64,000 nt of DNA, taken from positions 45,507,496-45,571,495 of the forward strand of contig CM068587.1 in assembly GCA_035048485.1 (NCBI GenBank). The letters are read 5' to 3'. The DNA is from Pteria penguin. Its lineage: Eukaryota; Mollusca; Bivalvia; Pterioida; Pteriidae. The notes beneath the pieces were generated by a model. It was not told the origin of the DNA and did no database searches. It saw nothing but the letters and a program-made list of their open reading frames with translations. This document shows, piece by piece, positions 3,929 to 46,186 of the stretch. A program made the translations under genes and the position numbers. Within the stretch, counting starts at the first letter, position 1, and each line of letters begins with the position of its first letter.

Positions 3929-3969
3929 TGTAACGGTTTCAAAGTTCCCCCATGCTGAAAGTTCCCTTT
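3929..3969 (+). repeat. Left terminal inverted repeat
   Basis: Starts TGTAACGGTTTCAAAGTTCC and matches the reverse complement of 28264-28304 with two visible mismatches over 41 bp (positions 7 and 24). It contains two copies of an AAAGTTCC core (CAAAGTTCCCC and CTGAAAGTTCCC). Beyond the strict repeat both ends share a GCATGCG palindrome at similar distance (here around 3980), so weaker terminal similarity extends to about 60 bp. Confidence 0.92.
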
Positions 3970-6900
3970 GTCGCACATACGCATGCGTCAATAATTTTTC
4001 TAATATCCGGTTTGAAAGTTTCCAAAACTGAGTAGGCCTATACCTGATTTGTAAAGAAAATTTATTATCATATACTTTATTTGACGACATAAATACTAGT
4101 AGTAGTACTAGCAAGATGGTTGGTAGACCTATTTCTATATCGCTTCTGTGCTCACAATTTATGCGTTTAAATTTTAATTTTATTTGTTGTTAGGAATACT
4201 GTGCTGGTTCAGTGCAAGTGCCTTGAAGTGGTTTAGGAAATTATGTAACCCATGTGATTAATATCCATTGTAATGTAGTCTTAAATATAAGACAGAGGCT
4301 TGAGACTTGGGTCTTAATTCTTCCTACACAGATAATCGACGGGAAGATCGGAAAAATCGAAAGGCATTTAGAAGAATATTACTTGCAAGACACCTTGTCA
4401 TTTACTTTTAAAAATAAAATTATCTGGAACAACTACACTACACTTAAGCGGGCATTGTAAAAAGTGTGGTCCATGGTGTGCTATATCGATGCTACCCACT
4501 TGCATGGATTATGTTTAATTTGGGGGCTGCTGCCCCCAAACCCCCACTTGAAAGCTAAGAACGTGTTACCAATTCTCAGTAATAATATGGCATATGCCAC
4601 ATGCATGTGCAGAAGGCTGTTCCACCCGCTAAAGTGCAATCTACCCAATTATCTGCATAATACATTCAGAAAGTTAAACAAAGGGCTCAAAGCAGGCAAA
4701 TTTCAACATTCTTTAGCCAAATCTCCCACAAGTGCTTTTTTTTACATTATGGTAAATTCCAATTTAAGTGAAATAGAAGGAAATTCGGTGATAGAATGTC
4801 ATAAATCACTGTCTACAGTACATGACTTATATTGGACTTTATGATATTAAGTAAGGCTTTATAGTTTGGATGTAAACAAGTGAATTATCAAGCAAATCTT
4901 TTTAGTAAAATAAGTTTACTTTTTTTCAATTTTTAGTTCCTGTCGATTCTGTCTATTATGGAAGAATTAATTGAGACACAAGTCTCATGCTTAGGTCTGA
5001 TATTTCTTACTATCTCTAGCGGTGCTATTTATAAATAAAACCTTGAGTACTCTGGTGTATTCTAGTGTAGTCTGTTTAGCAGCAGCCCTGTCTCTAGAAC
5101 AGTTGTGCAGTACTGACAATTGAGATCTAGTTACTCCTAAACGTGACATTTTCCCATTTTTTTTTAAACTTCACTTTGAATTGTCACTGTAACTGGATCT
5201 CGGTATAGATTGATATGTGAGCTACGAATGTGAGCTAGATATGCATTATATCTGTATATAAATTTTATACTATTTATATAGAGAATAAAGAATGTGTTTG
5301 TGTATATACATGAGCTACGGGCTGATACCAGAGGGGTTCGAATGAAACAATTTCCATGTGATATTAAGGCCTGATAAGACACTTTTTGGCATCCATATTT
5401 GTTTCTTAACCAAATCAGGCATATATCTGATTAAAAAAATTCACGATGAATTAATGTACATGTAAGTGGGTTGTGTTTTATCATTAGTTTTAAATTCTCC
5501 AAACACAATGCAAGCCTAAAAGAGAAAATGCATTTTTATGAATTGATGTTGAAAGTGAAGTGAAGTTGATACACAGTAAAGATTTAGAAATCTAGACTTT
5601 AATTTTTCAGGCATAATAAAAGAAAATGTACCTAAATTTTTAATATTTAAAAAGTGTACTTCATAACCAAATCATTATTATGCATACAATGCAAGCCTAT
5701 GCATTAATTACTATGAATTGATGTTAAAAGTGAGATATTGTTTCACTACACTTTCGGCATAACAACAGGTGTGCCTGGTCGGCAGGGGATGCTCCATGGC
5801 ACCTCATCCCACTTCTGTTTTGACAAAGGTTTGTGATTGCTTGTGTGTGTTTACATTGTTATTTATTGCCTTGTTGTTTCGAATTTGAGTCAGGATTTCA
5901 GATCCATATCTCAGGTTTGAACATACACGATAAAGATTTAGAAATCCAGACTTTGAATTTTCAGGTATAATAAAAAAAAATGTACCTTTATTTCTAATAA
6001 TAAGAAAATGTATTCTTCTTCTTCTTCTTTAAGTGCCTTACTTGGTTGGAGTATACTCTCACTCTACTCTTGACTTCTTGTAATAGATTATAGGTCACTT
6101 CATAATCAAATCAATTGGTTACAGGTTTATTCTGTAACCATTTTGTACTGGTTGATTCATAACCTATCAAATGATACTGTGATACTTACATCTAAATAAA
6201 ATTTTGATCTCATGTAATTCATTGTCAGCTATTGAAGGTTGCCAAACTCAAAAGTAACGCTTTGGTGGAGAAATACTGCAAATAGGGGTTTTTTTTAATT
6301 ATAGGAATTATAATTACATGTAATTAAAGTCAGAAAAATAGTTTTTAATTGTCAAAAAAGGATTTTTAGCTGTTTCTCTGTTTATAATGAATATAAACAA
6401 TTGAATAAATGGGAAAAGTAGTTTGAGTAGCCACACAATTTTAAATTATTTTGTTTGTTTAGCATGTTTGTTTAGATTTACCTTGATTTGAAAACAGAAT
6501 AATATATACATGTATAAAAATGTTATGCCTCTGATATCATTCATGATTGTAATGCCGCAGTCTGGCAGCACTAGATCTGTCTTGCATAACAATTGTCCCC
6601 AAACAAAGTAAATTCTGTCATTGAGATATAAAAGCAAACAAGTATGCTGAAGAAAAACTAGAATGAGAACGTTTTCATAACATCAAACAGCCAGAAATAC
6701 TAGTACATGAACCTGAGTACACATACCAATGTCTACAGTGCTACAGTACAATGTATAATTTCAGCAGACAGCTAAAGATTTATTTATTATAAATTTATTT
6801 AGAATTGAATTGAATGTGTGATATTATGTGTACTTAAACAAGTTTATTTTTTCATTTCAACATGAAATACAATAAGTCTGAGAATCTCTATCCTTTCTCC

Positions 6901-7701
6901 CACATATGATATAGAAAGTGGGAGAAAGGGCAGAGAATCTCTGACTAGAAATACAGTGGACCCACCAAATTTGATTTGACAACTACTACATGTACACTTT
7001 TCTGTATCTGCATCATTATAATGTTATTCTTATCAAGATATTACATACAAACATATTAGTAACTTTGAGATTTGCCTTGAATCAGTTTGATACATGTTTC
7101 ATGACACCACTCATATGAACAACATATACATGTATCATTACATATACCGGTACATATATGTCTTATACTCTTACTTCTCCAATTCTACCGATACATGTAC
7201 CGGTAACATCACTAAGAAACTTCAAATAGATAATTTGTAAAACTTTGATGTCTTGTATAATTTGACTCCTTCATTGACTTATTTCACTCTAGAGAGTTTT
7301 GTAACATTTTAAAAAGTGATGACTTTCATCGAGTACTCTTCCTCAATAGTTAATGATTGCTTGCATATTGCAATACATGTATCAGTCTGTATTATTGTTA
7401 CAACAATGTACATTGTACTGTACATGTATGCAAGTACCGGTAATCAAGCTTTTCAAGAGGGGTGGCGTGAGCCTGGGATCAAATCCCTTTGGAAGAGAAG
7501 CCCCTTGGCTTGGTGATACTCACTTTTTACATTGTATCTCTCTATTGAGTGATTTTTGAGTCACTGTTTAGGGCCATTATTCCTTTTATCTTTTTTTCTT
7601 ATTATAGATCTCATTCACTAATGCTTAGATGTTTTTAGACAAGTGACTTTGCATGAAAAATTTAAGAGCTTTAAATATGTCAAATTATAATATATTTTTA
7701 G
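3970..7701. other. Left arm of the DNA transposon, noncoding or unresolved 5' exons
   Basis: No exon can be recognised with confidence; the start codon and first exon(s) of the transposase probably lie here. A 126-codon ORF at 4464-4844 has no recognisable motif. A subterminal GGTTTGAAAGTTTCC motif occurs near 4010. A local direct duplication exists: the segment around 5550-5690 (AAAGATTTAGAAATC, then TTTTCAGG.ATAATAAAA.AAAATGTACC) recurs around 5930-6010 and 6090-6120. A short CTT microsatellite lies at 6013-6030. A hairpin-forming pair (GGATAGAGATTC-like and its inverse) is visible around 6880-6945. Confidence 0.5.
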
Positions 7702-7855
7702 ACTGTGAAGCCGACTGATAAGTTTGCAGAATTTGTCAAATACATGCAAAATATTTTGCATTATTTGCAAACTGGGACGTATTTGCCTGGTACGTCAAGT
7801 AGTAGGAAGAAGGCGATCAGAAAGGCAACTTCAAAAGGGCAATATACATATGAAG
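7702..7855 (+). CDS. Transposase exon 1 (first recognisable): N-terminal linker
   Basis: Acceptor TTTTTAG before 7702 and donor G|GTAAAG after 7855. The exon encodes KFAEFVKYMQNILHYLQTG..SSSRKKAIRKATSKGQYTYE. This pattern (F..I..YL.TG.Y...S..RK.AIR) is typical of the segment just N-terminal to the H2C2 finger in gypsy-type integrases and their domesticated relatives. It ends in phase 1, which matches the next exon. An ATG for the gene must lie upstream and was not found. Confidence 0.72.
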
Positions 7856-8226
7856 GTAAAGATTCTGATTTCACAAGCAAGATGAGTGAAACAAAAATGT
7901 ACATATGCTCATAATATATACCCATGAGTTACATGGTTGAATTTATATGAGATTTTGACACAGTTATGACCAAACTATTTGTGCATTGGTATGCCACCAT
8001 AATTCAGAACATACCATTTAAGGTTGAAGCCAAATATACTTTGTTACATTTCAGTCAGATTGAAATTAATATGTAAATAAGTTGGTTCAAATTCAAATTG
8101 GGTTGAATATAAATACCCTATTTTAAGTAGTTCAAATGTATATGTAAAATGCATTTGTAATTACAGACATGACAATTGTGGAATGTTGTGCTGATATTAT
8201 TCTACATACTCAAGTTATCCTAATTA

Positions 8227-8800
8227 TTGTGTCGCCTGCATAGCATGACAGACACAAAGGGGTAACTTTTTCTGTTTGCGAGAGCAGCAGCAGTGTCGTT
8301 GTCACACTTTCTTGTCTGGGGCAGTAGCTCCAACATTATTGCATGGATTCACTCCATACTTGCAACAAAAATACCTTATGAGGTGGGAAAGTGCAAAGCT
8401 TCAGAACCATAACTCTACCTTAGATACTGGTAATTCTTGAATTATCACCCATACTTGATTTTTATTCAAATCGTCTTGCTTGCTGTATAGTACTGTTACA
8501 TGTAACAAAATTGCATGGATTCACTCTTAACCATGAACACAGAAATCTTACGGGGTGTGATTAACTGCAATGCACAAAATCGTTCTAGTTAACTATAGCT
8601 TGTTTTATTCAATTATTCTATATAAAAGCTGACAAAATCAGGATTTCAAGTTTTTTATTTTTATCCTTGCAGAGTTTTACAATACTGATAACTGTATGAC
8701 TTTATTTCTGTAATGTAACTTTTTTTGTTACAAAAAACATCTGCCAGTAATTTTGATTTGATACCTTTTTTTGACAGCTGCTAAAATGCAGGTGACACAA
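8227..8800. mobile_element. Small non-autonomous element in intron 2
   Basis: Bounded by a 14-bp inverted repeat with one mismatch (TTGTGTCGCCTGCA at 8227-8240 and TGCAGGTGACACAA at 8787-8800). It contains no ORF and has an internal direct echo of 'GCATGGATTCACTC' at 8341 and 8513. It lies in the intron between the linker exon and the H2C2 exon. Confidence 0.5.
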
Positions 8801-9076
8801 TTAAGTGTTCTGAGGAACACCCTTCTATTATTGTCTTGTAAAGGAGATGTATTTCAATATCAATTTTACTGCTGGATCACAATGTTCAACCTAAACAATA
8901 AACATGAACAACTTTAAAAGTATTCAATTTTCAAATAGATTTCAGTTGTCCACTAAAATATAAAACTGCAATTATTACAAATAAAAGAACAGACTGTGAA
9001 ATAAATGCTTGAGAAATTCTCAATTTACTATTGTTAACAGTCAGACAATTGCCAAATCTCTAATTTTCCTATTTAG

Positions 9077-9252
9077 GATCAACCCTCTTTTATAAACATA
9101 TGGGCAGGAGGTTACAACAGAAGACCTAAGGGTAGCCGTACTTAGGGAGTGTCACAACACTGCTCATGCTGGACATAGTGGGATAAATGCAATGGTGGCC
9201 AGAATCACACAGGAATTTTGGTGGAAAGGAGCTCACGATGATGCTGTAGAAT
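9077..9252 (+). CDS. Transposase exon 2: first half of H2C2 zinc finger
   Basis: Acceptor CTATTTAG before 9077. In phase with the previous exon it reads GSTLFYKHMGRR and then runs into a stop. The obvious continuation, LRVAVLRECHNTAHAGHSG followed by INAMVARITQEFWWKG, lies in another frame, so a frameshift sits near 9100-9110. The HxnGH..G and WWKG motifs are the two-histidine half of the integrase H2C2 finger. No canonical GT donor is seen right after the coding similarity ends (about 9252), so the 3' edge is approximate and may be mutated. Confidence 0.72.
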
Positions 9253-10025
9253 GGGCAAGAAATTACGATTTTCTTCTTTTTTAGTTACATTTATTATGCA
9301 GTCTTTCAATTGTGACAAGTACAGGCAAACAGATTTAATTGATTGTGTTATGATGCTGGTCAGTTTTAAGGGAAAAACACAATATTGCCCAGCCCTTCAT
9401 CTCTTTGGGTTCAAGTCCAAGCAGGATTCAGGTAAGGAAGTCTTACAACTGGTATAACATGTGGTCACCAATTGTCGCTACATGTAGTTCTTACAACTGG
9501 CTTAAAATTGTCTAAGTCTGTAGTACAACCTTGGGTTGTCTGTGTGCCCAGGTTCTTCTTCCACTATAATACATTGTGATTAGCTGTTTGTCCCATGTGC
9601 CGTAAATACCGGTATTGTCATAACACAACAACATCAAGAATAAACTGGTACAAGTATTTTGCAGCTTAGTGGGATTCAGTATTAGCTCATTTATGATGTA
9701 TACTTTCTTGAGTTATAAAAAAAGGCAAATAGTATAATCATTTGGCAAAATGAAAGTTGTTCTATTACTGTTTGACCTAGCGTCAAGTTAATATTCACTA
9801 TTACTTTTTTAGTGTAATTTATATCAAAAGCTGCATAGTTTCTTTTGTTTTGTTTTTTTGCTTTCTCTTTATAAGAAACTGTGGTATGGTACACTAAAGT
9901 GCATTCTCGGTGAACAGTTCTGACACTCAGGTTTCATAATGTTAACATTTCTTACTAGTCGGAAGTGTATTTTAAATATTGTTTTAATTCTCTTGTCTAA
10001 TAAGTAAAAATCATATTTTAATTAG

Positions 10026-10273
10026 AAACAAAAATGCATTGCATGCCAGCATCAGGAAGTAATTAAGACTCAGGCACCAGTGCTGCAACCGATCCCAGTA
10101 AAGGAGCCATTGTATATGGTTGGGATGGATCTGATTGGCCCTCTGAAGGAAACTGAAGGTCATAAATACATTCTGACTATGACTGACTACTTCACCAAGT
10201 GGGTTGAGTTTTTCCCCTTGAAGAGTAAAACTGCTGTGGAAGTTTGTTCAGGCGTACGTAGTTTCATCTACAG
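10026..10273 (+). CDS. Transposase exon 3: CxxC of H2C2 and first catalytic Asp
   Basis: Acceptor TTTAATTAG before 10026; donor CTACAG|GTGAGA after 10273. It encodes KCIACQHQ (the cysteine half of the finger), then EPLYMVGMDLIGPL with the first catalytic aspartate at 10128-10130, and then YILTMTDYFTKWVEFFPL, a hallmark of Ty3-type integrase cores. It ends with AG of an Arg codon, which is completed by the first base of the next exon. Confidence 0.88.
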
Positions 10274-11449
10274 GTGAGAACAATATGGGTTTATTTAAGT
10301 CCCCTACCATGTAATGTGTACGTACAATATACATAAATGTTGAAGTGTGTTTGGGCCATATCTCTTATACTTATGTCAACTGATTGTCAGTAGCTATTGC
10401 GTAACCATTTATTCCTAGGGTCAAGGTCACAACTATAAACATGCATATCTGTAAACACGTTTTCCATGTACCTGAACATTGTACATATATATAAGATATG
10501 TGTATAGTTTTTACCCTTTGCAGAAAAGGTTCACAGACAAACTTACATGGTAGGGGACTCTGGTAATGCTTGTTTTACAATATTAACTTGTTTAGTATTC
10601 ACTTTATCAGAATTACATATTTATTCATGTGAGATTACAACAATGAATTCCATTGTCATTTAACTTTGTCCAATACAATGAGAATACATATTTTTTATAA
10701 ACACCTGTTATGCTTTGAAAATATACATGTAACACAATTAATTTATTTTAAAAAAATGCATCTTTATTGCAAAATTGGTTGAGACTTTCATTTAAGAGAA
10801 GTTGAAGGTTTGTTAAACAAACATAATAAATATGAAGTATACATGTTTATGTAACAGGTGCTAAAAATATCAATCAGTAGTTCACTTACTAAGGGCATCA
10901 AATGAGACAACTGGTGAAAAATTCTGATTTAACCAGGACTTGAACACTGTTGAGTGCCTTTCATAGGGTGAATTGTCTATAACTGAGCTACTCAGCAACC
11001 TGCTGATTTGTTTTGTGATTTATCACTAAATCCTTGTAAATGAAATTATGTATTTTTAAGCCTTTAAATTACTTGATTGTTGATCTTAGAGCATTAATTA
11101 CATTATATGTACTAAGGTTGATTTTATGTCATCAAGAAGTATTATGTAAAATTGTTTACCATTTATTTTTTGATATAAATCTGAATTAAAATTCTTATCA
11201 TGTAAGATGGATCAATTCCCTCCCCAGACTGTAAAAAGGCTGTTACAAAAAGGTCAGATTGTTTGGTCCCCCCCCCCCATGATTTGTGTTGAAATCCCAA
11301 TTAAAGCATAAATCTAATTTTGTTACTATATCTCATTAAAATATTAAGCAGAGTTTTGCTGCAACTTTTGCTGTGCTCTATAAAGTCATATTTACTGAAT
11401 TGTCTTATAAATAAGTCAATTATTAATGATATTTTGGTGCTTAATTCAG

Positions 11450-11986
11450 ATATGGACCTCCAAAAGTCATTCTGAGTGACCGGGGAAAGGAGTTTGTAAA
11501 TTCATTGAATGATCAACTTTCTGAGGAGTTTGGGATCAGGCGGTTGGTAAGCTCGGCTTACCATCCACAAACAAATGGATTGGATGAAAGAACAAATAAA
11601 ACCCTCAAGGAGAGGTTAAGTAGATTGACCAACTCGGAACAAGATAACTGGGACATATATTTAGAAGGGGTGGCATACAGTATGCGAACACAGAAGCAAT
11701 CCAGTACGAAGTATACACCCTTTTTTTATTATACCATAGAGAGCCCAATCACATTGGTGCCACAAGTGATACAAAGGAGCCAACACTTGAAGATCTCCTT
11801 GAACCTACTGATCAAGACATTGAAGGTCATGTTAAACACATAGAAGAAGCTTTCTTTCCAAAAGAGAACACTGAAGGGTTTTAAGGTATTTGACTTTTCT
11901 GTTGGAGACCTAGTGCTAAAAAAGAACATGAGGAATATAGGCAGAAAAGGGGACCGACTGGCTGAGAAGTGGAATGGTCCCTACAG
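11450..11986 (+). CDS. Transposase exon 4: integrase core, second Asp and Glu
   Basis: Acceptor TTAATTCAG before 11450; donor CTACAG|GTATTG after 11986. It encodes YGPPKVILSDRGKEF with the second Asp at 11478-11480, and SSAYHPQTNGLDERTNK with the Glu at 11586-11588, exactly 35 residues apart (DD35E). The family-typical continuation YHREPN..EEAFF appears one frame off after the T7 run (11721-11727). The original frame resumes by about 11865 with FDFSVGDLVLKKNMRN..EKWNGPYR, the start of a GPY/F-like module. Two opposite indels are therefore inferred. Confidence 0.87.
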
Positions 11987-12848: not shown

Positions 12849-12850
12849 AC

Positions 12851-13243: not shown

Positions 13244-13930
13244 AGTTCATCAAGTATCATCAAATCAGCGCTATGTATTGCAGGGCATGTCCGGAAACAT
13301 TTTGAAATCCAAAGTACCACATGTTCAATTGAAACCTTACCTGGTCTCTCAGCTATCGTCACCCCCGACATGCAGCACTCCAGCACCACCATCACCCCCA
13401 ACATGCAGCACTCCAACACCACCATCATCCCCCATATGCAGCACTCCAGCACCACCATCACCCCCCATATGCAGCACTCCAGCACCACCATCACCCCAGA
13501 CATGCAGCACTCCAGCACCACCATCACCCCCCTCCCCATATGCAGCACTCCAGCACCACCATCACCCCCCCATATGCAGCACTCCAGCACCACCATCACC
13601 CCCCCATATGCAGCACGCCAGCACCACCATCACCCCAGACATGCAGCACTCCAGCACCAGCACCACCATCATCCCCCATATGCAGCACTCCAGCACCACC
13701 ATCACCCCAGACATGCAGCACTCCAGCACCACCATCACCCCAGACATGCAGCACTCCAGCACCACCATCACCCCAGACATGCAATACTTCAGCACCACCA
13801 TCACCCCAGACATGCAATACTTCAGCACCACCATCATCCCCAACATGCAGTACTTCAGCACCACCATCTGCTTCAACACCTCTGGCATGCAGAAAACCAA
13901 CATTACCGTGTGTGGAAGATGCAGTATTAG
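13244..13930 (+). CDS. Transposase exon 5: GPY/F-like end and Pro/Ser/Cys-rich repeat
   Basis: Acceptor CTTTCAG before 13244; donor TATTAG|GTTTGT after 13930. It begins RVHQVSSNQRYVLQG, then KSKVPHVQLKPYL, which completes the GPY/F-like module begun in exon 4. It then enters a 33-bp tandem repeat translated as CSTPAPPSPPT-like 11-residue units. After the array the frame that fits the next exon reads CRKPTLPCVEDAVL. Entry and exit frames differ by one base, so the array carries a net frameshift, although all three forward frames are open through most of it. The Pro-rich stretch is presumably a flexible linker between integrase and protease. Confidence 0.8.
   Translation, partial: SSSSIIKSALCIAGHVRKHFEIQSTTCSIETLPGLSAIVTPDMQHSSTTITPNMQHSNTTIIPHMQHSSTTITPHMQHSSTTITPDMQHSSTTITPLPICSTPAPPSPPHMQHSSTTITPPYAARQHHHHPRHAALQHQHHHHPPYAALQHHHHPRHAALQHHHHPRHAALQHHHHPRHAILQHHHHPRHAILQHHHHPQHAVLQHHHLLQHLWHAENQHYRVWKMQY
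13365..13865 (+). repeat. 33-bp coding minisatellite inside exon 5
   Basis: About 15 tandem copies of CAGCACTCCAGCACCACCAT + CACCCCAGACATG. Unit length is a multiple of three, but several units differ by C-run length (CCCCC to CCCCCC), an extra CCCTCC or an extra CAGCAC block, which changes the frame. Later copies change to TACTTC. Cytosine-rich and strongly strand-asymmetric. Confidence 0.95.
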
Positions 13931-15337
13931 GTTTGTAATTTATCTTTATCTGCCACTATTTTCAAAATTACTATGGAATTTGGACTGATTTTATGTTTGT
14001 GTCCATTTCTTAATAACTATCAAAGACATCCTCTTGAAAGTTAGAATACTATTTGGTTATGAAAAGGGGAACCCATTTCCAATTTTCAGGTTATTCTAAA
14101 ATTGATTTCTTGAAATTTGGTTAACTTGTTTGTTAATTTTTAATTTTTTTTTTTTTTGGTGTCCATTTCTCAAAAACTATCAAAAGATATCCATTGGAAG
14201 ATTGGATTGATTTTTCATTATGAGAAGGGAATGTATTTTGAAAGGGTAGATAATAATCTAAATAAAGTATACAGAGTTATGACCCTTGTTTGACTTAGAT
14301 ATTTTGTAAATAATTAAATCATTTGCAGGTACATGTAACTCTTATCTGAAAACTATATATCTAAAAATTTTAGGTACCCACTTGATACTTTGAAAACTTG
14401 TTTAATATCAATGCTCAAGACATTTCAGAATGTTTATATAAATGATAATCTTTACTTCCATATGTCTTGGTATATATGAATCACTGTAAGCCTGTCCTTT
14501 ACTCTACAGTAGTTTTCAGGAGACCCATTACTTTAAAAATTGTACTCTTACAGTTCTTCTTTCGAGATAGGAGTGGGATCAGATGTTACACTTGTGCAGT
14601 TGATTTCACAGAAATGTTAAAATCTATGTTTATACTTTAGAAACACAATTTGTTAACAGAAATTTTTCTAGCTATCCAAGAACAAAAAAAGCTTAATTTA
14701 TTAACCATGCAACGAAGAAAAGTCAAGTGTGCTGTATGTGACAGCTCTTAAAAATGTTACCGGGTATATTTCATTATAATACAGTTATGTTACATTTGAA
14801 TAGGTAGACATGTTTTTTAATGAAAAGGAAAATATAGTGTATTTTATAAATACATGAATATGAATTGTTAAATATTTATAAGTACTATAGTCTTTCTAAG
14901 AATCAGGCAATTTCGTAAAAAATTGAAACAGGCACATCATTTACTTATAGATTTTAATGCAAATTTGTCATTAGGATGTGCATCTAAATAAGGAAACGTG
15001 TTTAATTTTTCTGTAGTCTTTTGCATATTGAAGTAATTTTTTGTAAGAAATGTTAAGAAATTGCTATTTCCGATAAGAGTTATCTGCTCTTGATTTGCTA
15101 TTTATTATACATTCTATACAATTAAATGAATTCATTTCTCACATGTGCAGACCTAAAATTGAAATTAAAGTAATATTATTTTCGTATATTATGTGCAGGT
15201 TAAAATTTCAGTGAAAAATTCATGGGATCTTTTACCCCTTGTTTCACCTACTGCCTGATTCTTAGAAACACTGGTACTTTAAAAAAAAACATTATATTTA
15301 GACACTGTGTGTGTTTTTGGGGTTTTTTTTTTTTTAG
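13931..15337. other. Intron 5
   Basis: Noncoding. It holds an imperfect local duplication: GTCCATTTCTTAATAACTATCAAAGACATCC near 14000 recurs as GTCCATTTCTCAAAAACTATCAAAAGATATCC near 14160. It ends in a long T-run polypyrimidine tract before the acceptor TTTTTAG at 15337. Confidence 0.6.
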
Positions 15338-15453
15338 ATCTGGCGTATGTACAGTCACTACCTGAGGACAATACTTCATTAAATGTCAAAGTGGGCAGTT
15401 ATGATTTGTCCGCCTCCTCATTCAAGCATCTACAGTCTACACTATCAGATGAA
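15338..15453 (+). CDS. Transposase exon 6: N-terminus of Ulp1-like protease domain
   Basis: Acceptor TTTTTTAG before 15338; donor GAA|GTAAGC after 15453. It encodes LAYVQSLPEDNTSLN, VKVGSYDLSASSFKHL and QSTLSDE, continuing directly into VIDAYIEL in the next exon. L.DEVIDAY at the start of the fold is characteristic of C48 (Ulp1/SENP) peptidases, whose counterpart is the 'W-L-N/D-D-x-x-I' motif. Phase 1 start and phase 0 end agree with the neighbours. Confidence 0.8.
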
Positions 15454-16032: not shown

Positions 16033-16152
16033 GTTATCGATGCTTACATCGAACTGCGCTCACAGAAGAGAAGCGAATTCCATCCTTTCAATGCTGTAGT
16101 AGCAACTTCCATCTTCATGAGATCATCTGGGCTGCATTGTTATTTAAAGCAG
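16033..16152 (+). CDS. Transposase exon 7: Ulp1-like protease
   Basis: Acceptor TTTGCAG before 16033; donor AAGCAG|GTAATT after 16152; 40 codons, phase 0 on both sides. It encodes VIDAYIELRSQKRSEF, HPFNAVVATSIFMRSSG and LHCYLKQ, matching the helix and 'V..S.F' segment that precedes the catalytic His in C48 proteases. Confidence 0.8.
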
Positions 16153-17632
16153 GTAATTTCTTTAACTTCAGAAGATTGCTTCTATGTACTGGATATACTG
16201 AAGGACATTGGTCTTAAGGCTCCGATAACGTTATTTTATCATGTAATAAAATAGTCAAACGTCTCCTAAATAGACAATATGATATTGAGATCATCAAAAA
16301 GACTATAGGTCTTGTATTTGGTCCCTCTACAGCCTTATGCAGACTTTTACTTGAACGTTGCACGCTGACTAACAGGGCGGTGGGGACTATATGACGGGCC
16401 TTGTCCAAACCTCTTTCAGAGGAGACATGGTCCTGAACCTCGTCCCCTCTGACTGTTAGTCGGGACTCCTACAGATCTAGGGTCTTAGCTCGCTTTCAGA
16501 CTGGCAGAGCACGGTTTATCATGTTGATGTCGCATATATTTTTATACCATTATGTGTTTTACAATACCTTACGTGTTTATATTTTTATGACCTCTCAATA
16601 TGCGATACCTGTTGACCCTTGTTCTTTACATGGAGGATTATTTATAAATTTTTAAATGTACGTCTTTTGATTGTTCTGCTGTTACGGTGAGTGGGAAGGT
16701 GGGCCCGTAAACCGGTTAACCACACCATTTGTTTGGCTTTTGTCAAATTAAATGACCGTCCTAAGTCGGTATCGTAATTGCACTACAATCAAATATTTTT
16801 GTGATGTGTTAAATGTTCTATTATATTATTTATATTCATGTATTGTATAGCTCCATGGTGACTTCTGCCACATAACTGAGCCGGTAACTCCTCTTTTTTC
16901 TTAACTAAATTAATATAAATGAAGAAAATTTGGAAAGTTAACAACAAATTCCAAACTTTTAATTGTGACTTAAGGAGCTATACTTTTGAAACCAACCAAG
17001 CAACCAACCTACCTCTTTTAGGAGGCAGGTGTGACATAAATGTCCCGTTTGCTTTTAGAATTCTTTAAAAAAAATTATATATCTATCCTGAGTAAGGTTA
17101 TCCTAACAAAAAATCAGTTCCATCCACTCTGCTGCACTAACATCCTTTAATATTTGAGTTGCAATATTTCAAGCAGGCAATATAGTTAACTTGTACAATA
17201 TATAGGTTGAAACTATCAAATAAATTAATGTAATAATAATAAAAATACATGTAATAGAAATTTTTATATAAGATTTTGATATTAATATTTTAATGAAGTT
17301 AATGTATTTTCTGAAAAAGAGATGAACAGTGTATGCAGTTATTGCAATATGACTATATACTGGAGACCCCCAAATTAATTAAGAAGTATTTTTAAAGGTT
17401 CTCGGTTTGTTTGTTTGTTTGTTTGTACTTGACTATAGGTTAATACCTAAATGTATGTGTTTAAGCGCATTTCCTTTGAAGATGTTTTCACATCTTCATG
17501 TCATTTGATATACATAATTAGTACGTATATACACTGTATTGTATTTATACAAACCAAGCCTCAGCATCAAACTTACTCATTTTCTTATTAAAACTTACTA
17601 ATGCCTTTTTATTATTTTTTAAATTGATACAG
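16153..17632. other. Intron 7, with LINE-like or unclassified repeat remnants
   Basis: Noncoding. The segment 16260-16900 is less AT-rich and contains degenerate coding-like sequence (GCTGACTAACAGGGCGGTGG..TCAGAGGAGACATGG..GACTGTTAGTCGGGACTCC), probably the 3' end of an old retroelement; I cannot name the family. A GTTT tetranucleotide run lies at 17406-17424. Confidence 0.4.
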
Positions 17633-17698
17633 ACAAACATTTACGCATATGACAAGATCATTTTCCCAGTAAATGAAGGATTTCATTGGGTTCTTGTG
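17633..17698 (+). CDS. Transposase exon 8: protease catalytic His
   Basis: Acceptor GATACAG before 17633; donor GTG|GTGAGT after 17698; 22 codons. It encodes TNIYAYDKIIFPVNEGFHWVLV. The His codon is at 17684-17686 in the FHWVLV motif, equivalent to the P.N...HW.L/V motif of Ulp1/SENP proteases. Confidence 0.87.
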
Positions 17699-18246: not shown

Positions 18247-18754
18247 GTTATAAGTTCAGAAAGTTGATTTTAAATTGTTATATTATTTATAGTTTTGTTT
18301 TATTTTCTTTTTATTTGGCTGTACAAACATAATAACCATCTGCAGTGGCTGGTGGCATCCACAAACATTGTCTGCTTTCTAACATTAACTTTTATAAGAT
18401 CTTGAAAATTCATTCAACTAGATCAAAATTAAATTTTGTGACATTCTTCAGATATGATGAATTACTAGCTAGATCAGTACAGTGTACAGTCAGTGTTTGT
18501 GGTTATTGATCGAGACGTAACTGTTACTTTGTTAACCCTTTGCCTGATATGGAACCAACAGAAGTGACCCATGCAAACAGCATAAAACCAGATCAGCTTG
18601 TCATTTCTTGCAAGCTGATCATGTTTTATGCCGTTAAAATGCTGCTTCATTATGTATTGGGAATGATCGAGCTTTATAAGCAAGACAACCTGATAAGACT
18701 AAATCATATACTTGCATGCTGATAAGGACTATTTTATTTGGTTATTTTACACTT

Positions 18755-19465
18755 GTTAGGTTTTCGCTTTTGCAGAGCGAAAACCTATTGTTCTTCTGTT
18801 GAATTCTTATTATCCCCCGCTGAATATATTTGGCATTGTCCATCCAGTTGTGCGTCTGTCTGGATGTTCGTCCATCCGGACGTCACTTCTGTTTAGGCTA
18901 TATCTCAAAGACTATATCGCAACTTAATCGATCAACATGTAAGTTACTTCATTTATGGACAGATTTCAATGAGAAGTGCATTGCAAAAGAACAATAACTA
19001 TCTTCTTGCAATATTTAAGAATTATTGACTTTCATTAGTTTTTTTGCTTATTTTTTGTGCAGAACATATCTCTGAGTGACTACAGAATTTAAGATAAATC
19101 AGCATACAGTAAATTAACTTCATATGGGATCATGGATCTCATTGACTAGAACTGCACTGTTTAAGAATTGTAACATTATCCCTCTTCTTTAGAGTTATTG
19201 CCCTCTGTTATTTTTTTTTTTACTTTAAAGTGGGGGATATATCTCAGGGACTTATAATCAGCCGATATTAATATGAAATTTTAAGCTTTAATCGATCTCA
19301 TTGTTAATTTCTTCACTTGAATTTAATTCTGTCTGGGTCATGTCTCAGTGTACAAAAATACCTGCAATATTATTTGTACAGCTCACATGTTTGACATTAT
19401 GCTCCCATTACTGAGAAAAATATTATTGGCGGGAATATCAATTCGACGAATTTGCTTGTTAATTA
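18755..19465. repeat. Interspersed repeat in intron 9
   Basis: Opens with the palindrome GGTTTTCGCTTTTGCAGAGCGAAAACC and continues with TTGTCCATCCAGTTGTGCGTCTGTC and repeated 'ATATCTCA..GACTT' segments. It appears to end near GGCGGGAATATCAATTCGACG. The palindromic head and the simple phrase-like repeats resemble a dispersed family common in bivalves. No ORF; the boundaries are approximate. Confidence 0.45.
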
Positions 19466-20019
19466 AGTGTTGCAGAGTTACATGGTTAAAAACCTTAAAT
19501 TGTTTCTTCTAATCTGTTGATTTACTTTTCATTCATGTTGCGATTTCCATTCTTTTGCATGCAAGTGTAGCAAGATAGCCAAAACAACAGTATTCACCAT
19601 TTGACTTCAATTCACCCAAGAAGTTTGAAAATTTGACATTATTGTGTGTATTTTTCAAGTTTTAAAAGCTAATTCATAAATGTCATAAAATGGTAGGATA
19701 CTGTGTCTGATTCGATCTGGCTGATCATGTTTATAATTAAATGTCTGATATTAGACACCCATGATGTATATTCACAAATGCTACTAAAGTCATATTGGCT
19801 ATTATTCGCAGTTAAATATTTGTATTTCTTAATTGAATATATCTATAATCTTTGTAAATAAATATTTTGCTTCATGGTTTTCTTCTTCAGATGTAAATTA
19901 TATATCATCTTGTGTAACTATAATATATATACATATATAGTTATTTAGTTAAAACTACATGTATGTGCATTACATTTTAAAAATATTATAATAGACCTAC
20001 CAATATGTTCTATTTTCAG

Positions 20020-20140
20020 TATGTTTTTGAAAGGACGTTTCCAGCAGGGTATAGATAAAATATTTAAAAAATGGAGTCTTAAAACAGTAACCCATGCAAA
20101 ACAAAGAGATAGCACCTCTTGTGGCATGTTTGTTTTGAAG
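20020..20140 (+). CDS. Transposase exon 10: protease Gln and catalytic Cys
   Basis: Acceptor TTTTCAG before 20020; donor TTGAAG|GTATAT after 20140. It encodes MFLKGRFQQGIDKIFKKW and HAKQRDSTSCGMFVLK. The Gln (20102-20104) supports the oxyanion hole and the Cys (20120-20122) is the nucleophile in the Q...D.x.S.CG.FV signature of C48 peptidases. This is the strongest single piece of evidence for the protease assignment. Confidence 0.9.
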
Positions 20141-20379
20141 GTATATATATATTTTTTAATAAATTAATTTCACTGAATATATCTTAAGCAAGCTTTTTGG
20201 TTTGGAATCATTAACTCAGTTGCATTTTCTGTTTTAAGAAGTTTGAAATGCTATATTATAAAGTCAGTCACCATGTTGGATATCAGTCAGTCAAGCTAGT
20301 TAGGTTAAAATATTGTTTTAGTATCTGTTAAAATTGCTTGACTTATGACTCATATCAAAATTCGGGTCTTAATGACAGA

Positions 20380-21174: not shown

Positions 21175-21294
21175 TTTGTAGACAATATTTTAAATAGAGA
21201 ACCATTTAAATCTTCTTGGACGAAAGAAGAAATAGAAGATGAGAGGCTGCATGTTGGAAACACCCTTCTGCAGGCGGGAGTGAAAGTAAAAACA
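21175..21294 (+). CDS. Transposase exon 11: end of protease domain
   Basis: Acceptor TTTTTGCAG before 21175; donor AAAACA|GTAAGA after 21294; 40 codons, phase 0. It encodes FVDNILNREPFKSSW and TKEEIEDERLHVGNTLLQAG, the C-terminal helix that follows the Cys box in Ulp1-like proteins. Confidence 0.8.
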
Positions 21295-21873
21295 GTAAGA
21301 CGTTCCATATGGAATTGTTACTGAATTGTCACCATTTTAAAATATTGGTGTAGGTTTTGCGTGCATTAGAGGCCTTTGTTCTAATATCTGATATGCTATT
21401 ATTTAATAATAATATAATTTGTGATAAATTACATCGTAATTGATTTAATTGACATTATGTTATAAAGATAGATATCAAATCTTGTAATTTAATATGATCA
21501 ATTACCAACAGTTATCATATTCACAAATATATTGCATGTTTATATCAAAAAGCATGTATAGAGTGCTTTGCCCATTGTTGGTAAGTCTCTCCATCGCTCG
21601 ATCAGAGTTTGTTCCAGTGATAACTTAGAGGTCAATAGGTTAATTTTCAAGGTCACAATAAATGTTTTCACACTTGCATTTATAATGTTATGGATCAGTT
21701 TAAACTACAGTTTTCATATTTGGTAGAAATGTTTGTCGTAGTGGGTAAATGAAGCCTATTGATTTTGAAGTCATTATGTCAAAGATGATCACGTCAGTGA
21801 CCTGGCAATTGAGGGGGCATATATATTTCATAAACATATTTTGTAATATATCATATTTATTTTTAATATCTAG

Positions 21874-21915
21874 GCAGAAGGGAAATCTCGGGATTTGAGG
21901 GTGAATAGAAAAAAG
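21874..21915 (+). CDS. Transposase exon 12: short basic linker
   Basis: Microexon of 14 codons between acceptor ATATCTAG and donor AAAAAG|GTAAAA, phase 0 on both sides. It encodes a basic peptide (AEGKSRDLRVNRKK). Supported only by splice signals, phase and position between two recognisable exons. Confidence 0.55.
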
Positions 21916-22515
21916 GTAAAATATTATGGCTGTTATATAACTTACAATGCAACAACTTTCTTAGGATACATGTATGTTACAAATGTTACAATAATGTAAA
22001 TACTAGAGAAAGTTAAATCTTTTTATCATATGCATCATAGTTATTATATGGGGGTCAGTAATTATAAATAGGTTAGACAAGTTGTCAAATATCAGTGTAA
22101 TTATAATGTCATTAATCTATCTTATAAGTTCTGTTAATCAGAAGCCTTTTGCCATTAGATAAAATTTCCTAAAGATATTGTTGTAATGTAAGTCCAAATG
22201 ATAGTCCAATATGGTCCAATATCATTTTATAAATTTTGTTGATTTAAAGTTTCACGTTGCTCTGGCTTAGGACAAGTATATTACAGGTGCAATAATATAA
22301 TGTATATACAAAGACACCCAGTCAGAAATATTGCTGTATTAACCGGCTTGAAGATTTTCTCGCATGAATAATCTGATTGACTCTGATTGGGATTGAACTC
22401 ACAGCTGTCGGGGCTGAGTAACAATATTAATTTAAGTCAATGACTGTACCAGCTTGCATGGCCTTGACAAATGTCAACTAATAATATGCTTTTTTTTCTT
22501 TCTTTGTTTTTGTAG

Positions 22516-22602
22516 AGAATGCGTCCATCTTTCGTCTACGAAAAACCCGTCAAAAAAAAGCAGAGGGATGTACTGCATATGCCAGCAGCCAGAAGATGAC
22601 AG
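22516..22602 (+). CDS. Transposase exon 13: first half of PHD finger
   Basis: Acceptor TTTTTGTAG before 22516; donor GACAG|GTATGA after 22602. The 3' part encodes MYCICQQPEDDR, the first Cys pair of a PHD finger, and joins in frame to exon 14. In the phase inherited from exon 12 the exon instead reads RMRPSFVYEKPVKKKQRD and hits a stop. The switch between the two frames maps to the A8 run at 22552-22559, so a one-base slip there is inferred. Confidence 0.75.
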
Positions 22603-23126
22603 GTATGACATATAATTAAATGAATTTTAGTTTATAACACTTAATTTGACTTAAACATTTTTTTCACTTTTGCTTTAAATTGCCGTCTGTGTGGCAAACA
22701 TATCGTATTTTATATACTGTGTATTATGAAGAACTCTAATTTGTTCTGTCATTTGGTATTCCTATTAGTTTAATGTTTTACATGTGGATTAAATTGATTG
22801 GGCTAACTCATTATGTATAACAGCATTATTAATGTATACAAGACAGTGCCATATCATATTACATTTTAAGCGAAAAGGGTATTCTAGTGTATACCACATA
22901 TCTCTGTTAAAACATTTATTATCATTATTATATCTTTGATATAAGCAAAACTATGAACAAAATGCTTCATGTTTTTGATGCTAAAGTCATGGGTGGGTGT
23001 TACCATGCTATGGCAAAATTGTCAAATGTAAATGGACTGCCTGTTTCTTACTTAATTTCAATTAACAATAAAACTTCATGTAGTTGTTCCTGATACAGTA
23101 CATCTTCTTTTTCTTTTTTTATTCAG

Positions 23127-23226
23127 AATCTATTACCAGTGTGAGTATTGCAGGCAGTGGTTCCACCCGGAATGCCTGGGTATTGAAGAGGAACCAGCTT
23201 CTTTCTTCTGTCCTGGATGCTTTTGA
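23127..23226 (+). CDS. Transposase exon 14: second half of PHD finger and stop
   Basis: Acceptor TTATTCAG before 23127. It encodes IYYQCEYCRQWFHPECLGI and then FFCPGCF with TGA at 23224-23226. With exon 13 this completes a C4HC3 arrangement (CxC, CxxC, HxxC, CxxC) with the conserved aromatic before the His, typical of PHD fingers that read histone H3 tails. Which mark it would read cannot be told. Confidence 0.87.
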
Positions 23227-23569
23227 AACTTCCTATCCAACATATACTTTACAGAATTACAATTTTGTGGCTCTAACTTACTAGTACTTCTGTTTACATT
23301 TCTGAAGACTAGCTGATTTGGAAGAAATTATCACCAAAAAATGTTGATGTGCTTGAAAATTATTTGTATGTGTGTCGGTTGACTTATTTCATGTATAATT
23401 ATTAACCTATATACATTTACAGATTCAGTTACATTTAAGTAAAAGGCAGTTCATGCAGTGTTCATTATCTCTACTACATACATGTCAACCTCTGGAAGAC
23501 CCAATGAGGGAAATCTCCCTCATTTGATCTCTCCAATGAGGAAGGTTTTGTGTAAGCGCAATGTGATGA

Positions 23570-26500
23570 AAGTAACTACTTTAAAGATGTATATAAAAGT
23601 CCGTATTGGAAGATTGTACCCACTATGGTGAAAGTTTCTACCTGTATTATGTATATTGAGACCCGTGGTGAAAGTTCCTACCTGTAATATGTATATTAAG
23701 GCCCGTGGTGAAAGTTCCTACCTACCGTGGTGAAAGTTCTTACCTGTTATATGTATATTAAGGCCCGTGGTGAAAGTTCCTACCCACTGTGGTGAAAGTT
23801 CCTACCTGTAATATGTATATTAAGGCCCGTGGTGAAAGTTCCTACCTACCGTGGTGAAAGTTCCTACCTGTAATATGTATATTAAGGCCCGTGGTGAAAG
23901 TTCCCACCCACTGTGATGAAAGTTCCTACCTGTAATGTGTATATTAAGGCCTGTGGTGAAAATTCCTACCTACTGTGGTGAAAGTTCCTACCTGTAATAT
24001 GTATATTAAGGCCCGTGGTGAAAGTTCCTACCCACTGTGGTGAAAGTTCCTACCTGTAATGTGTATATTACGGCCTATGGTGAAAGTTCCTACCTACCGT
24101 GGTGAAAGTTCCTACCTGTAAGATCTATATAATTAGGCCTATGGTGAATGTTCCTACCTACCGTGGTGAAAGTTACTACCTGTTATATGTATATTAAGGC
24201 CCGTGGTGAAAGTTCCTACCCACTGTGGTGAAAGTTCCTACCTGTAATGTGTATATTAAGGCCCGTGGTGAAAATTCCTACCTGTAATATGTTTATTAAG
24301 GCCCGTGGTGAAAGTTACTACCTGTAATGTGTATATTACGGCCTATGGTGAAAGTTCCTACCTACCGTGGTGATAGTTCCTACCTGTAATATGTTTATTA
24401 AGGCCCGTGGTGAAAGTTCTTACCTACCGTGGTGAAAGTTCCTAACTGTAATATGTATATTAAGGTCCGTGGTGAAAGTTCCTACCTACCGTGGTGAAAG
24501 TTCCTAACTGTAATATGTATATTAAGGTACGTGGTGAAAGTTCCTACCTACCGTGGTGAAAGTTCCTAACTATAATATGTTTATTAAGGCCCGTGGTGAA
24601 AGTTCCTACCTACCGTGGTGAAAGTTACTACCTGTAATATGTATATTAAGGTCCGTGGTGAAAGTTCCTACCTACCGTGGTGAAAGTTCCTAACTGTAAT
24701 ATGTTTATTAAGGCCCGTGGTGAAAGTTCCTACCTACCGTGGTGAAAGTTCCTACCTGTAATGTGTATATTAAGCCCCGTGGTGAAAGTTCCTACCTGTA
24801 ATGTGTATATTACCGACTATGGTTAAAGTTCCTACCTACCGTGATGAATGTTCCTACCTGTAATATGTATATTAAGGTCCGTGGTTAAAGTTCCTACCCA
24901 CTGTAGTGAAAGTTCCTACCTGTAATGTGTATATTATGGCCTATGGTGAAAGTTCCTACCTACCGTGGTGAAAGTTCCTACCTGTAATATGTTTATTAAG
25001 GCCCGTGGTGAAAGTTCCTACCTACCGTGGTGAAAGTTCCTACCTGTAAGATCCATATAATTAGGCCCATGGTGAAAGTTCCTACCTGTAAGATCCATAT
25101 AATTAGGCCCATGGTGAAAGTTCCTACCTGTAATGTGTATATTAAGGCCCGTGGTGAAAGTTCCTACCTACCGTGGTGAAAGTTCCTACCTGTAATATGT
25201 ATATTAAGGCCTGTGGTGAATGTTCCTACCAACTCTGGTGAAAGTTCTCACCTGTTATATTAAGGCCCGTGGTGAAAGTTCCTACCTGCCGTGGTGAATG
25301 TTCCTACCTGTAATATGTATATTAAGGCCCGTGGTGAAAGTTCCTACCTCTAATATGTTTATTAAGGCCCGTGGTGAAAGTTCCTACCTACCGTGGTGAA
25401 AGTTGCTACCTGTAATGTGTATATTAAGGCCCGTGGTGAAAGTTCCTACCTACCGTGGTGAAAGTTACTACCTGTAATGTGTATATTAAGGCCCGTGGTG
25501 AAAGTTCCTACCTCTAATATGTTTATTAAGGCCCGTGGTGAAAGTTACTACCTGTGATGTGTATATTAAGGCCCGTGGTGAAAGTTCCTACCCACTGTGG
25601 TGTAAGTTCCTACCTGTAATATGTATATTAAGGCCTGTGGTGAATGTTCCTACCAACTGTGGTGAAAGTTCTCACCTGTTATATGTATATTAAGGCCCGT
25701 GGTGAATGTTCCTACCCACTGTGGTGAAAGTTACTACCTGTAATGTGTATATTAAGGCCCGTGGTGAAAGTTCCTACCTACCGTGGTGAAAGTTCCTACC
25801 TGTAATATGTATATTAAGGCCCGTGGTGAAAGTTCCTACCTGTAAGATCTATATAATTAGGCCTATGGTGAATGTTCCTACCCACTGTGGTGAAAGTTCC
25901 TACCTATAATGTGTATATTAAGGCCCGTGGTGAAAGTTCCTACCTGCCGTGGTGAATGTTCCTACCTGTAATATGTATATTAAGGCCTATGGTGAAAGTT
26001 CCTACCTACCGTGGTGAAAGTTCCTACCTCTAATATGTTTATCAAGGCCCGTGGTGAAAGTTCCTACCTGTAATATGTATATTAAGGCCCGTGGTGAAAG
26101 TTCCTACCTACCGTGGTGAAAGTTCCTATCTGTAAGATCTATATAGTTAGGCCTATGGTGAATGTTCCTACCCACTGTGGTGAAAGTTCCTACCTGTAAT
26201 GTGTATATTAAGGCCCGTGGTGAAAGTTCCTACCTTTAATATGTATATTAAGGCCAGTGGTGAAAGTTCCTACCCACTGTGGTGAAAGTTCCTACCTGTA
26301 ATGTGTATATTACGGCCTATGGTGAAAGTTCCTACCTACCGTGGTGATAGTTCCTACCTGTAATATATTTAGTAAGGCCCGTGGTGAAAGTTCCTACCTG
26401 TAATATGTATATTAAGGCCAGTGGTGAAAGTTCCTACCTGTAATATATCTATTAAGGCCCGTGGTGAAAGTTCCTATCTACCGTGGTGAAAGTTCTTACC

Positions 26501-27600
26501 TGTAATATGTATATTAAGGCCCGTGGTGAAAGTTCCTATCTACTGTGGTGAAAATTCCTACCTGTAATATGTATATTAAGGCCTGTGGTGAATGTTCCTA
26601 CCAACTGTGGTGAAAGTTCTTACCTGTTATATGTATATTAAGGCCCGTGGTGAAAGTTCCTACCCACTGTGGTGAAAATTCCCACCTGTAATATGTATAT
26701 TAAGGCCCGTGGTGAAAGTTCCTACCTACCGTGGTGAAAGTTACTACCTGTAATATGTATATTAAAGTCCGTGATGAAAGTTCCTACCTACCGTGGTGAA
26801 TGTTCCTACCTGTAATATGTATATTAAGGCCCGTGGTGAAAGTTCCTACCTGTAATGTGTATATTACCGCCTATGGTGAAAGTTCCTACCTACCGTGGTG
26901 AAAGTTCCTACCTGTAATATGTATATTAAGGCCCGTGGTGAAAGTTCCCACCCACTGTGGTGAAAGTTCCTAACTGTAATGTGTATATTAAGGCCTATGG
27001 TGAAAGTTCCTACCTACCGTGGTGAAAGTTCCTATCTGTAATATGTTTATTAAGGCCCGTGGTAAAAGTTCCTACCTGTAATATGTATATTAAGGCCCGT
27101 GGTGAATGTTCCTATCTGCCTTGGTGAAAGTTCCTACCTGTAATATGTATATTAAGGCCCGTGGTGAAAGTTCCTACCTACCGTGGTGAAAGTTCCTATC
27201 TGTAAGATCTATATAATTGGGCCTATGGTAAATGTTCCTACCCACTGTGATGTAAGTTCCTACCTGTTGTATGTATATTAAGGCTCGTGGTGAAATTCCT
27301 ACCTGTAAGAATGTTCCTAGCTACCTGTAATATGTTAATAGGTCCGTTGTTGAAGTTCCTACCCACTGTGGAAGAATTCCCTACTTTAAAGATGTACATA
27401 AAGGCCCGTAGTGGAAAACTCTACGCACTATGGTGATAGTTCTTACTTTAAATATGTGGAGGCCTGTTGTGGAAGTTCCTACCAACCGTGTTGAAATTCC
27501 AATCTGTTACATGTTAATTGTAAGGCCCGCGTTGAAAGTTCCTACTTTAAATATGTATATAAAGGCCCTTGTGGAATTTCCTACGAAACGTATATATAAA
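23570..27600 (+). repeat. 4-kb subterminal minisatellite (22-bp + 40-bp modules)
   Basis: Tandem array of two interleaved modules: GTGGTGAAAGTTCCTACCTACC (22 bp) and GTGGTGAAAGTTCCTACC followed by TGTAATATGTATATTAAGGCCC (40 bp). They occur mostly as 62-bp pairs and sometimes as runs of the 40-bp form. The core TGAAAGTTCC occurs on the order of a hundred times (not counted exactly) in one orientation and is the same motif as in the terminal repeats (CTGAAAGTTCCC). Edges are more diverged, especially 27300-27600. It begins about 340 bp after the transposase stop codon. Confidence 0.95.
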
Positions 27601-28263
27601 ACCCATTGTTGTGAAACTATCTACCTGCAGTTACTGCATTTTTTTTTCTAAGGAACCTTCTAATTTAATTAAAGCTAATTTGCTCTTTATTTCAAACTGT
27701 CAATCTGTCATTATTATTATTATTATTATTATTATATTTCCCTATTTTCATAGCAATTGATGTACATTCAAATATGCTTAAGATTAATTTTTACCAGTTT
27801 TAGATGTAGGTGTAGTTATAGATTCATCATACTTCATGTATGAAGGGGCGCACAGAGATACCTCTCTTCCCTAGCTCCTGCAAATATCCAGTGTGATTAT
27901 TTTTGTCGTTTTCTTAAAGAAGTTTAGGACTCTCCCCAATTTATTATTTTCTCCCTCCCTCTCTCTCCTTTCCCTTACGTACCTTCTTCCGCCCCTACGC
28001 CTTCCCTCTCCCCATTGCCTCCATCTCCACTTTCTCTTACCCTGTCCACCCCCTCAGCCATGTAGAACTTTTTAACAATATTAGAATCCCTCAAATTTAT
28101 CACAATTATATCCTAACAGCCAGGTCCAGTACAATTATAAGAATTAATCTTTATTCTTTCATATTTCTCGTGGACCAAGCAACTTTTACCACGAGGAAAC
28201 TTTCACCATGCATATAACACAGACTGAAAGTTTCCTACCGATACGCGCATGCGCAAAACATCA
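27601..28263. other. Right arm between minisatellite and terminal repeat
   Basis: Noncoding. Contains an ATT trinucleotide run (about 27709-27736), a pyrimidine-only-like tract rich in CCCTCTC (27930-28060), and then subterminal motifs near 28175-28250: ACGAGGAAACTTTCACC, GACTGAAAGTTTCCTACCG and the palindrome CGCGCATGCGCA. Confidence 0.7.
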
Positions 28264-28304
28264 AAAGGGAACTTTCAGCACGGGGGAACTTTGAAACTGT
28301 TACA
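28264..28304 (-). repeat. Right terminal inverted repeat
   Basis: Ends GGGGGAACTTTGAAACTGTTACA-type sequence, the inverted counterpart of 3929-3969. Just inside it lies ACGCGCATGCGCA (around 28233-28251), a near-perfect palindrome of the type bound by NRF-1 in animals. Further in are more AAAGTTTCC/GGAAACTTT motifs (28190-28230) in both orientations. Confidence 0.92.
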
Positions 28305-28308
28305 CCGG

Positions 28309-46181: not shown

Positions 46182-46186
46182 AATTA

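Follow-up and report, generated by a model that had tools for sequence, protein, structure and literature searches.

A stretch of 64,000 bp from the genome of the bivalve Pteria penguin (GenBank assembly GCA_035048485.1, contig CM068587.1, positions 45,507,496 to 45,571,495; hereafter the window) consists of a satellite with monomers of ~ 1.65 kb at positions 1-3928 and 28309-64000 and, lodged in this satellite, a DNA transposon of 24,376 bp at positions 3929-28304, which we refer to as W. The element is bounded by terminal inverted repeats (TIRs) of 41 bp (3929..3969 on the plus strand and 28264..28304 on the minus strand), which start with TGTAA and are identical at 39 of 41 positions. A CCGG target-site duplication adjoins each of them (3925..3928 and 28305..28308), recognized from the TIRs and the empty-site comparison below; counted with the CCGG on each side, the inverted repeat extends over 45 nt (3925-3969 and 28264-28308) and is 96% complementary. 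Past a gap after the TIR, the motif CGCATGCG recurs at positions 52-59 in both ends, and the left TIR contains two motif copies (CAAAGTTCC and TGAAAGTTCC). When the flanks of W were fused (150 + 150 bp with a single CCGG), the product matched 14 uninterrupted satellite monomers of the window at 96-99% identity. These monomers represent the empty site, and thus the insertion was exact and accompanied by a 4-bp duplication. The initial annotation, which had described a 24.4-kb element precisely bounded within a satellite, with 41-bp TGTAAC..GTTACA ends and a CCGG duplication, is borne out in each of these points.

The interior of the element carries, on the plus strand, 13 exons (A-M) that appear to form a single spliced gene; W and C10, a second full-length copy in the same genome, supplied the splice sites and phases. 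The exons specify, in order, an H2C2 zinc finger, a DD35E integrase, a GPY/F region, an Ulp1 (C48) protease and a PHD finger. Exon A (7702..7855) lies upstream of H2C2, and its segment YLPG...QYTYEG is a plausible candidate for the YPYY motif. Exon B (9077..9254) encodes the H2C2 finger. The integrase core begins to be encoded by exon C (10026..10273), which supplies its first catalytic Asp, and exon D (11450..11986) contributes the second Asp, the Glu and GPY/F. In exon E (13244..13930), the end of the GPY/F region is followed by a Ser/Thr/Pro-rich linker that includes a 33-bp minisatellite (13359..13868), stop-free in all three plus-strand frames and variable between copies in both length and frame. 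An exon E ending ahead of the minisatellite was considered and rejected, since its phase would not join exon F. The Ulp1 domain starts in exon F (15338..15453) and continues through exons G (16033..16152), H (17633..17698; catalytic His in FHWVLV), the provisional I (18513..18563) and J (20045..20140; catalytic Gln and Cys in QRDSTSCG) to its end in exon K (21175..21294), while the two halves of the PHD finger are encoded by exons L (22516..22602) and M (23127..23226), the latter with the stop codon. Among the 12 introns of this model, ten are of the GT-AG type and the one that follows exon B is GC-AG; because exon I is without a proper in-frame acceptor, the intron ahead of it is provisional. 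The introns of C10 range from 524 to 1,408 bp.

Searches of the spliced exons against Pfam yielded matches above the curated cut-offs to Integrase_H2C2 (8.8e-15), rve (6.3e-13) and PHD (1.4e-6) for C10 and to Peptidase_C48 (E = 1.3e-7, with an X at one junction) for W. The GPY/F motif was read by eye as WNGPYR in the exon sequence, without a profile match, and the DD35E spacing was counted by eye on the spliced protein of C10. By eye, too, the C48 pieces contain the His, Gln and Cys, with an Asn at the position of the Asp in the homologues P0019 and P0021. The closest solved relatives of the integrase are the prototype foamy virus integrase and then that of Ty3. An intron-rich gene with H2C2, DDE, GPY/F, C48 and PHD, as first proposed for this locus, is therefore recovered, the GPY/F part by eye and the others by Pfam.

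A key question is whether the element has, or had, a reverse transcriptase (RT). Thirteen RT-bearing queries were compared with W and C10, and the RT elements of the window itself (40.6-53.2 kb) served as the control. Nine of the queries, all Gypsy-type proteins with RT and integrase, matched the two copies at exons B, C and D only, with 24-41% identity; the remaining four (the window Gypsy, its LINE, i.e., a long interspersed nuclear element, and two LINE homologues) had no match in either copy at E <= 1e-3. All 13 matched the neighboring Gypsy and LINE. Thus, no RT was found in W or C10 with these 13 queries, in agreement with the initial annotation. Ten further open reading frames (ORFs) of W, shorter ones lying outside the scan, had no Pfam match at 0.01.

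The position of the integrase was assessed with trees built from the best 120 of 328 homologues, 107 of which cover the core. In a quick tree of 108 rows (these 107 and C10), C10 fell into a clade of 29 rows with a support of 96 (SH-aLRT, the Shimodaira-Hasegawa-like approximate likelihood ratio test) that included none of the 31 RT/RNase H rows. The same 29-row clade was recovered in a careful tree of 73 rows (71 of the 107 homologues, C10 and the window Gypsy integrase) with a bootstrap/SH-aLRT support of 100/98; all 17 RT/RNase H rows of this tree lay outside it. Some of the rows labelled 'other' may derive from fragmentary Gypsy elements. The grouping with long terminal repeat (LTR) retrotransposons that would have spoken for a different origin was therefore not seen. 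Two Ulp1-bearing proteins are members of the clade, and the smallest supported group (99/93) is a trio of C10, P0001 and P0013, a protein from Homarus. The window Gypsy integrase is distant from that of the element (27% identity).

When the assembly to which the window belongs (49 contigs, 838 Mb) was queried with either end of W, i.e., its first 332 bp (120 candidates, 40 of them scored) or its last 705 bp (180 candidates, 40 scored), the same five long copies emerged, a number that is a lower bound. W (24,376 bp) and C10 (24,190 bp) are full-length; C6 (12,203 bp), C2 (11,166 bp) and C8b (2,464 bp) are internal deletions. The TIRs of all five are alike, with single-base differences at most. 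Three of the five are flanked by CCGG on both sides, C10 by ATAT on both sides and C2 by unmatched 4-mers. W and C10 differ by 176 substitutions at 15,094 aligned positions, a count that excludes the subterminal array described below, the minisatellite and a block at 13.8-16.2 kb.

Another important question is whether the size of W is a property of the family or a result of nested insertions. Two large segments of W, ~ 680 bp at 16217..16898 and ~ 830 bp at 19063..19892, are missing from C10, yet C10 is 24,190 bp long; nested insertions were therefore rejected as the cause, and the large size is a family property. The longer array of C10 explains in part why it comes so near to W in length. 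The claim of a very large family is upheld by this second copy. The ~ 680-bp segment is itself a dispersed repeat with a match to the Rfam family SECIS_1, a selenocysteine insertion element, at 16383-16446 (36.6 bits versus a cut-off of 35), and a stretch 98% identical to it lies downstream of C6 at a distance of ~ 1 kb.

The remaining left-end matches have just the first 65-67 bp in common with W and belong to miniature derivatives. In 24 of 25 such loci taken, the right end was found; 22 are 289 nt long, one is 288 nt and one 261 nt. The 289-bp miniature consists of element positions 1-67 and the last 229 bp (28076..28304, minus strand), with an overlap of 7. Among the 24 loci, 17 have CCGG on both sides, one has CCCT on both sides, and the flanks of six are unmatched. 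The mean pairwise difference among the 22 miniatures of 289 nt is 1.52 bases, a low value that is biased to young copies because the best-scoring matches were chosen. Across the genome, exact CCGG-flanked ends occur 150 times (77 + 73), versus 0 for the reversed pattern, so that the other copies with the same ends that had been called for as a check on the original proposal do exist.

Between the gene and the right end, at 23600..27545, lies an array of the TGGTGAAAGTTCCTACC core in one orientation (plus strand), which corresponds to the 4-kb subterminal array of the initial annotation. The cores are mostly spaced at 22 or 40 bp; at <=5 substitutions, there are 119 copies in W and 162 in C10, and the array is 4-5 kb long in these two copies. 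The 10-bp center of this core, TGAAAGTTCC, is present in the TIR too. With <=1 mismatch, TGAAAGTTCC occurs in the array 114 times in W and 152 times in C10, all on the plus strand and 0 on the minus strand; outside the array, each copy has 2 in its body of 18-19 kb and 3 within the first 200 bp, and the last 350 bp hold 4 in W and 5 in C10. Exact cores number 76, 102, 14, 22 and 9 across the five long copies, each count including one in the left TIR. A piece of the array used as a genome query matched the five long copies only (5 candidates, 5 scored). The miniatures possess two motif copies per TIR and three subterminal ones, and none of the array; since they have spread, the array is unnecessary for movement. 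This, the defects of W relative to C10 in several exons (see below) and the two segments missing from C10 are additions to the initial annotation, which is otherwise upheld.

With exon D as the query (150 of 1,207 candidates scored), two places in the genome were assigned to the giant family (identity 100% in C10, 82% in W), and the next match was at 42%; among these scored candidates, no intact transposase source for the family was found. The same search revealed a second Ginger1-type family, with 35 places at 41-43% integrase identity, 18 of which have an open frame of 667-670 aa. Two of its loci (C3:27.89-27.91 Mb and C1:26.03-26.05 Mb) are 99.3% identical over 12.4 kb; one has both ends, is 12,410 bp long, starts with TGTAAAGCCGAATAATGACCCCC, closes with its inverse and is flanked by CCGG, and the other is without the right end. 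Its frame of 668 aa matches rve and OTU in Pfam. The second family resembles the giant one in its GPY-type integrase (~ 42% identity), an iterated end motif and, at the one locus with both ends, its CCGG flanks and inverted ends, and differs from it in that OTU replaces Ulp1/PHD and a kilobase-long array is missing. Ten copies of the end motif, AATAATGACCCCC (<=2 mismatches), were counted: 4 fall within the first 200 bp, 6 within the last 250 bp (zones chosen after inspection of the sequence) and none within the intervening 11,960 bp; the outermost copies are in the inverted repeat itself. In 20 dinucleotide shuffles of the element, 0 to 2 copies arose. Judging from the sequences, the fact that each of the two families iterates a motif of its own at its ends favors the view that these motifs are transposase binding sites.

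On C11, at 15.64-16.10 Mb, twelve integrase matches with 40-41% identity to exon D were observed on one strand; 9 of their 11 spacings are ~ 28-46 kb, and the other two measure 79 and 90 kb. The pattern is reminiscent of tandem duplication of a unit that carries an integrase.

How do these elements compare with known systems? According to the original description by Bao, Kapitonov and Jurka (2010; PMC2836005), Ginger1 elements have 4-bp target-site duplications (75% CCGG, 24% CCGT/ACGG), TIRs of 40-270 bp, TGTNR ends, and a protein with H2C2, DDE, GPY/F, YPYY and either OTU or Ulp1; Ginger1-9_HM combines Ulp1 with PHD, and Ginger1-5_HM has a GC-AG intron. W shares with Ginger1, and especially with Ginger1-9_HM, the integrase order, GPY/F, Ulp1 with PHD and a spliced gene, as well as the short TIRs, the TGTNR ends, the CCGG duplications and the absence of RT. 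We would sharpen the Ginger-like identity first suggested to the Ginger1 type, which anatomy and tree fit. What exceeds the table of that paper, whose ranges describe the type and do not define it, are size and intron number: 24.4 kb versus 2,649-7,091 bp, i.e., more than three times the largest entry, and ~ 12 introns versus 0-4. To this, the element adds the 4-5-kb array of the TIR core and the 33-bp minisatellite in the coding linker; size, introns and array are new with respect to the table, and the second family (12,410 bp) is likewise longer than its range. In the available parts of the open literature (PMC2836005, PMC6431247, PMC12863088, PMC10045372 and PMC8268682; Repbase and subscription papers were unsearched), no Ginger element longer than 7.1 kb is named. 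Repbase itself held 23 Ginger1 entries in 2022, according to PMC10045372. A Ginger1-type integrase is also found in the host genes Imagin and GIN1. Imagin, according to PMC12863088, belongs to the host and has no inverted repeats; P0013 from Homarus, which groups with C10 in the tree, may be Imagin.

Taken together, the data are best explained by a giant, intron-rich, multicopy family of Ginger1-type DNA transposons with mobilized deletion derivatives and a motif array, and we put the probability of this reading at about 0.88. Under the mechanism that we propose, the one intron-rich gene would give rise to a transposase of the integrase type (H2C2, DD35E, GPY/F), to which an Ulp1 protease and a PHD finger are joined at the C terminus; these two domains may have roles of their own. 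The transposase would bind the iterated core (TGAAAGTTCC and its relatives) at both ends, cut at TGTAAC and GTTACA, presumably in a cut-and-paste mode, and insert the element preferentially at CCGG, duplicating these 4 bp. Tandem duplication in the right subterminal region would have turned the motif into a one-orientation array of >100 copies, which might have a function in this process, and the same enzyme would mobilize internally deleted copies, above all the 289-bp miniature.

Could the element instead be a decayed or rearranged LTR retrotransposon of the Gypsy type, one that lost gag and RT and has inverted ends by chance? Its integrase is of the Gypsy type and is matched by the nine RT-bearing Gypsy proteins, and TG..CA ends are common to LTRs. 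However, the ends are inverted, not direct, repeats, many copies share them together with 4-bp CCGG duplications, neither full-length copy has an RT match, and the gene is interrupted by ~ 12 introns; moreover, the tree separates the integrase from all 17 RT/RNase H rows, and the Gypsy integrase next door is only remotely similar. We therefore consider such an origin very improbable. A self-synthesizing element of the Polinton/Maverick type, which we think even less probable, would be of similar size (typically 15-25 kb) and would have the same pair of an integrase and a cysteine protease (PMC6431247, a paper on giant transposons that cites Ginger in comparison with Polintons). Against it stand the lack of any polymerase, ATPase or capsid match in Pfam for the exons or the 10 further ORFs, the 4-bp duplication as opposed to the 6 bp of Polintons (as given in PMC10045372), and the location of the integrase and protease pieces in one exon run with mostly matching phases.

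A much stronger contender bears on mechanism alone and shares the identity proposed above: the element would be a Ginger1 transposon, the array of which is the product of neutral slippage unrelated to transposase binding and the size of which is due to intron drift. The array-less 289-bp miniatures have spread well, the array length varies widely (9 to 102 exact cores in the five long copies), and the motif is barely better kept than the spacer (conservation in the array of 0.953 versus 0.912 in W and 0.928 versus 0.912 in C10). On the other hand, the array unit carries the 10-bp core of the TIR in a single orientation, and the second family iterates its own end motif at the ends only. We rate this explanation as quite possible, at somewhat less than even odds. 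If the motifs are indeed binding sites, a parallel would exist in Galileo of Drosophila, in which terminal tandem repeats hold several transposase binding sites (PMC3688188). Galileo has a THAP transposase of the P superfamily and repeats inside long TIRs, whereas the element described here has an integrase-type enzyme and a one-sided array.

Several observations weigh against a giant Ginger1-type family with a functional core motif. Neither full-length copy is intact: relative to C10, the gene of W is broken in exon B (10 bp missing, frame lost), exon D (1 base and 62 bp short) and exon L (1 base longer, frame lost), in addition to an in-frame difference of 3 bp in exon C, so that W itself is disabled, and exon F, which is open in W, is 7 bp shorter in C10. 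In both copies, the exit frame of the minisatellite differs from the entry frame, and the junction of exons H and I, which does not fit, is in frame conflict. The exon substitutions between W and C10 (9 synonymous, 14 non-synonymous and 1 in a split codon at 1,976 sites) show no constraint since the two copies split. The exon model was derived from sequence, and a true first exon with a start codon was not found. Among 283 candidates, no relative of the Ulp1-PHD region of the C10 protein was found at E <= 0.001; aligned pairwise, the region is 27-28% identical to P0021 and P0019. The clade was named from shared features, as no labelled Ginger1 protein is among its rows. CCGG on both sides is missing in two of the five long copies and seven of the 24 miniatures. 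The slight difference in conservation between motif and spacer belongs here too. Nor is the core confined to the element: read on the other strand, it is the 10-mer GGAACTTTCA, which is present at 11 places in the surrounding satellite.

The surroundings of W within the window contain further mobile DNA. At 41246-52144, a LINE lies in the same satellite, and its first reading frame is apparently interrupted by the Gypsy retrotransposon, which has an uninterrupted frame of 1,336 aa at 42138-46148. The best named homologues of the LINE come from Pinctada imbricata (~ 50% identity). The satellite itself matched no Rfam family at the gathering score and contained no tRNA.

What do these elements mean for the biology of Ginger1 transposons? 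One idea, which we offer as doubtful, is that the Ginger1 elements of this genome multiply their binding site near the ends, that the one-sided array of >100 sites captures or doses the transposase in cis and thereby limits or steers the large element, and that array-less derivatives escape this effect and spread. Judging by the 289-bp miniature, ~ 300 bp of sequence in cis would be enough for movement. The end motifs of the two families yield a testable candidate for the binding site of the Ginger1 transposase, and we know of no experiment on that site, for which no literature search was made. For genome annotation, it should be borne in mind that intron-rich integrase genes of this type could pass for host genes.

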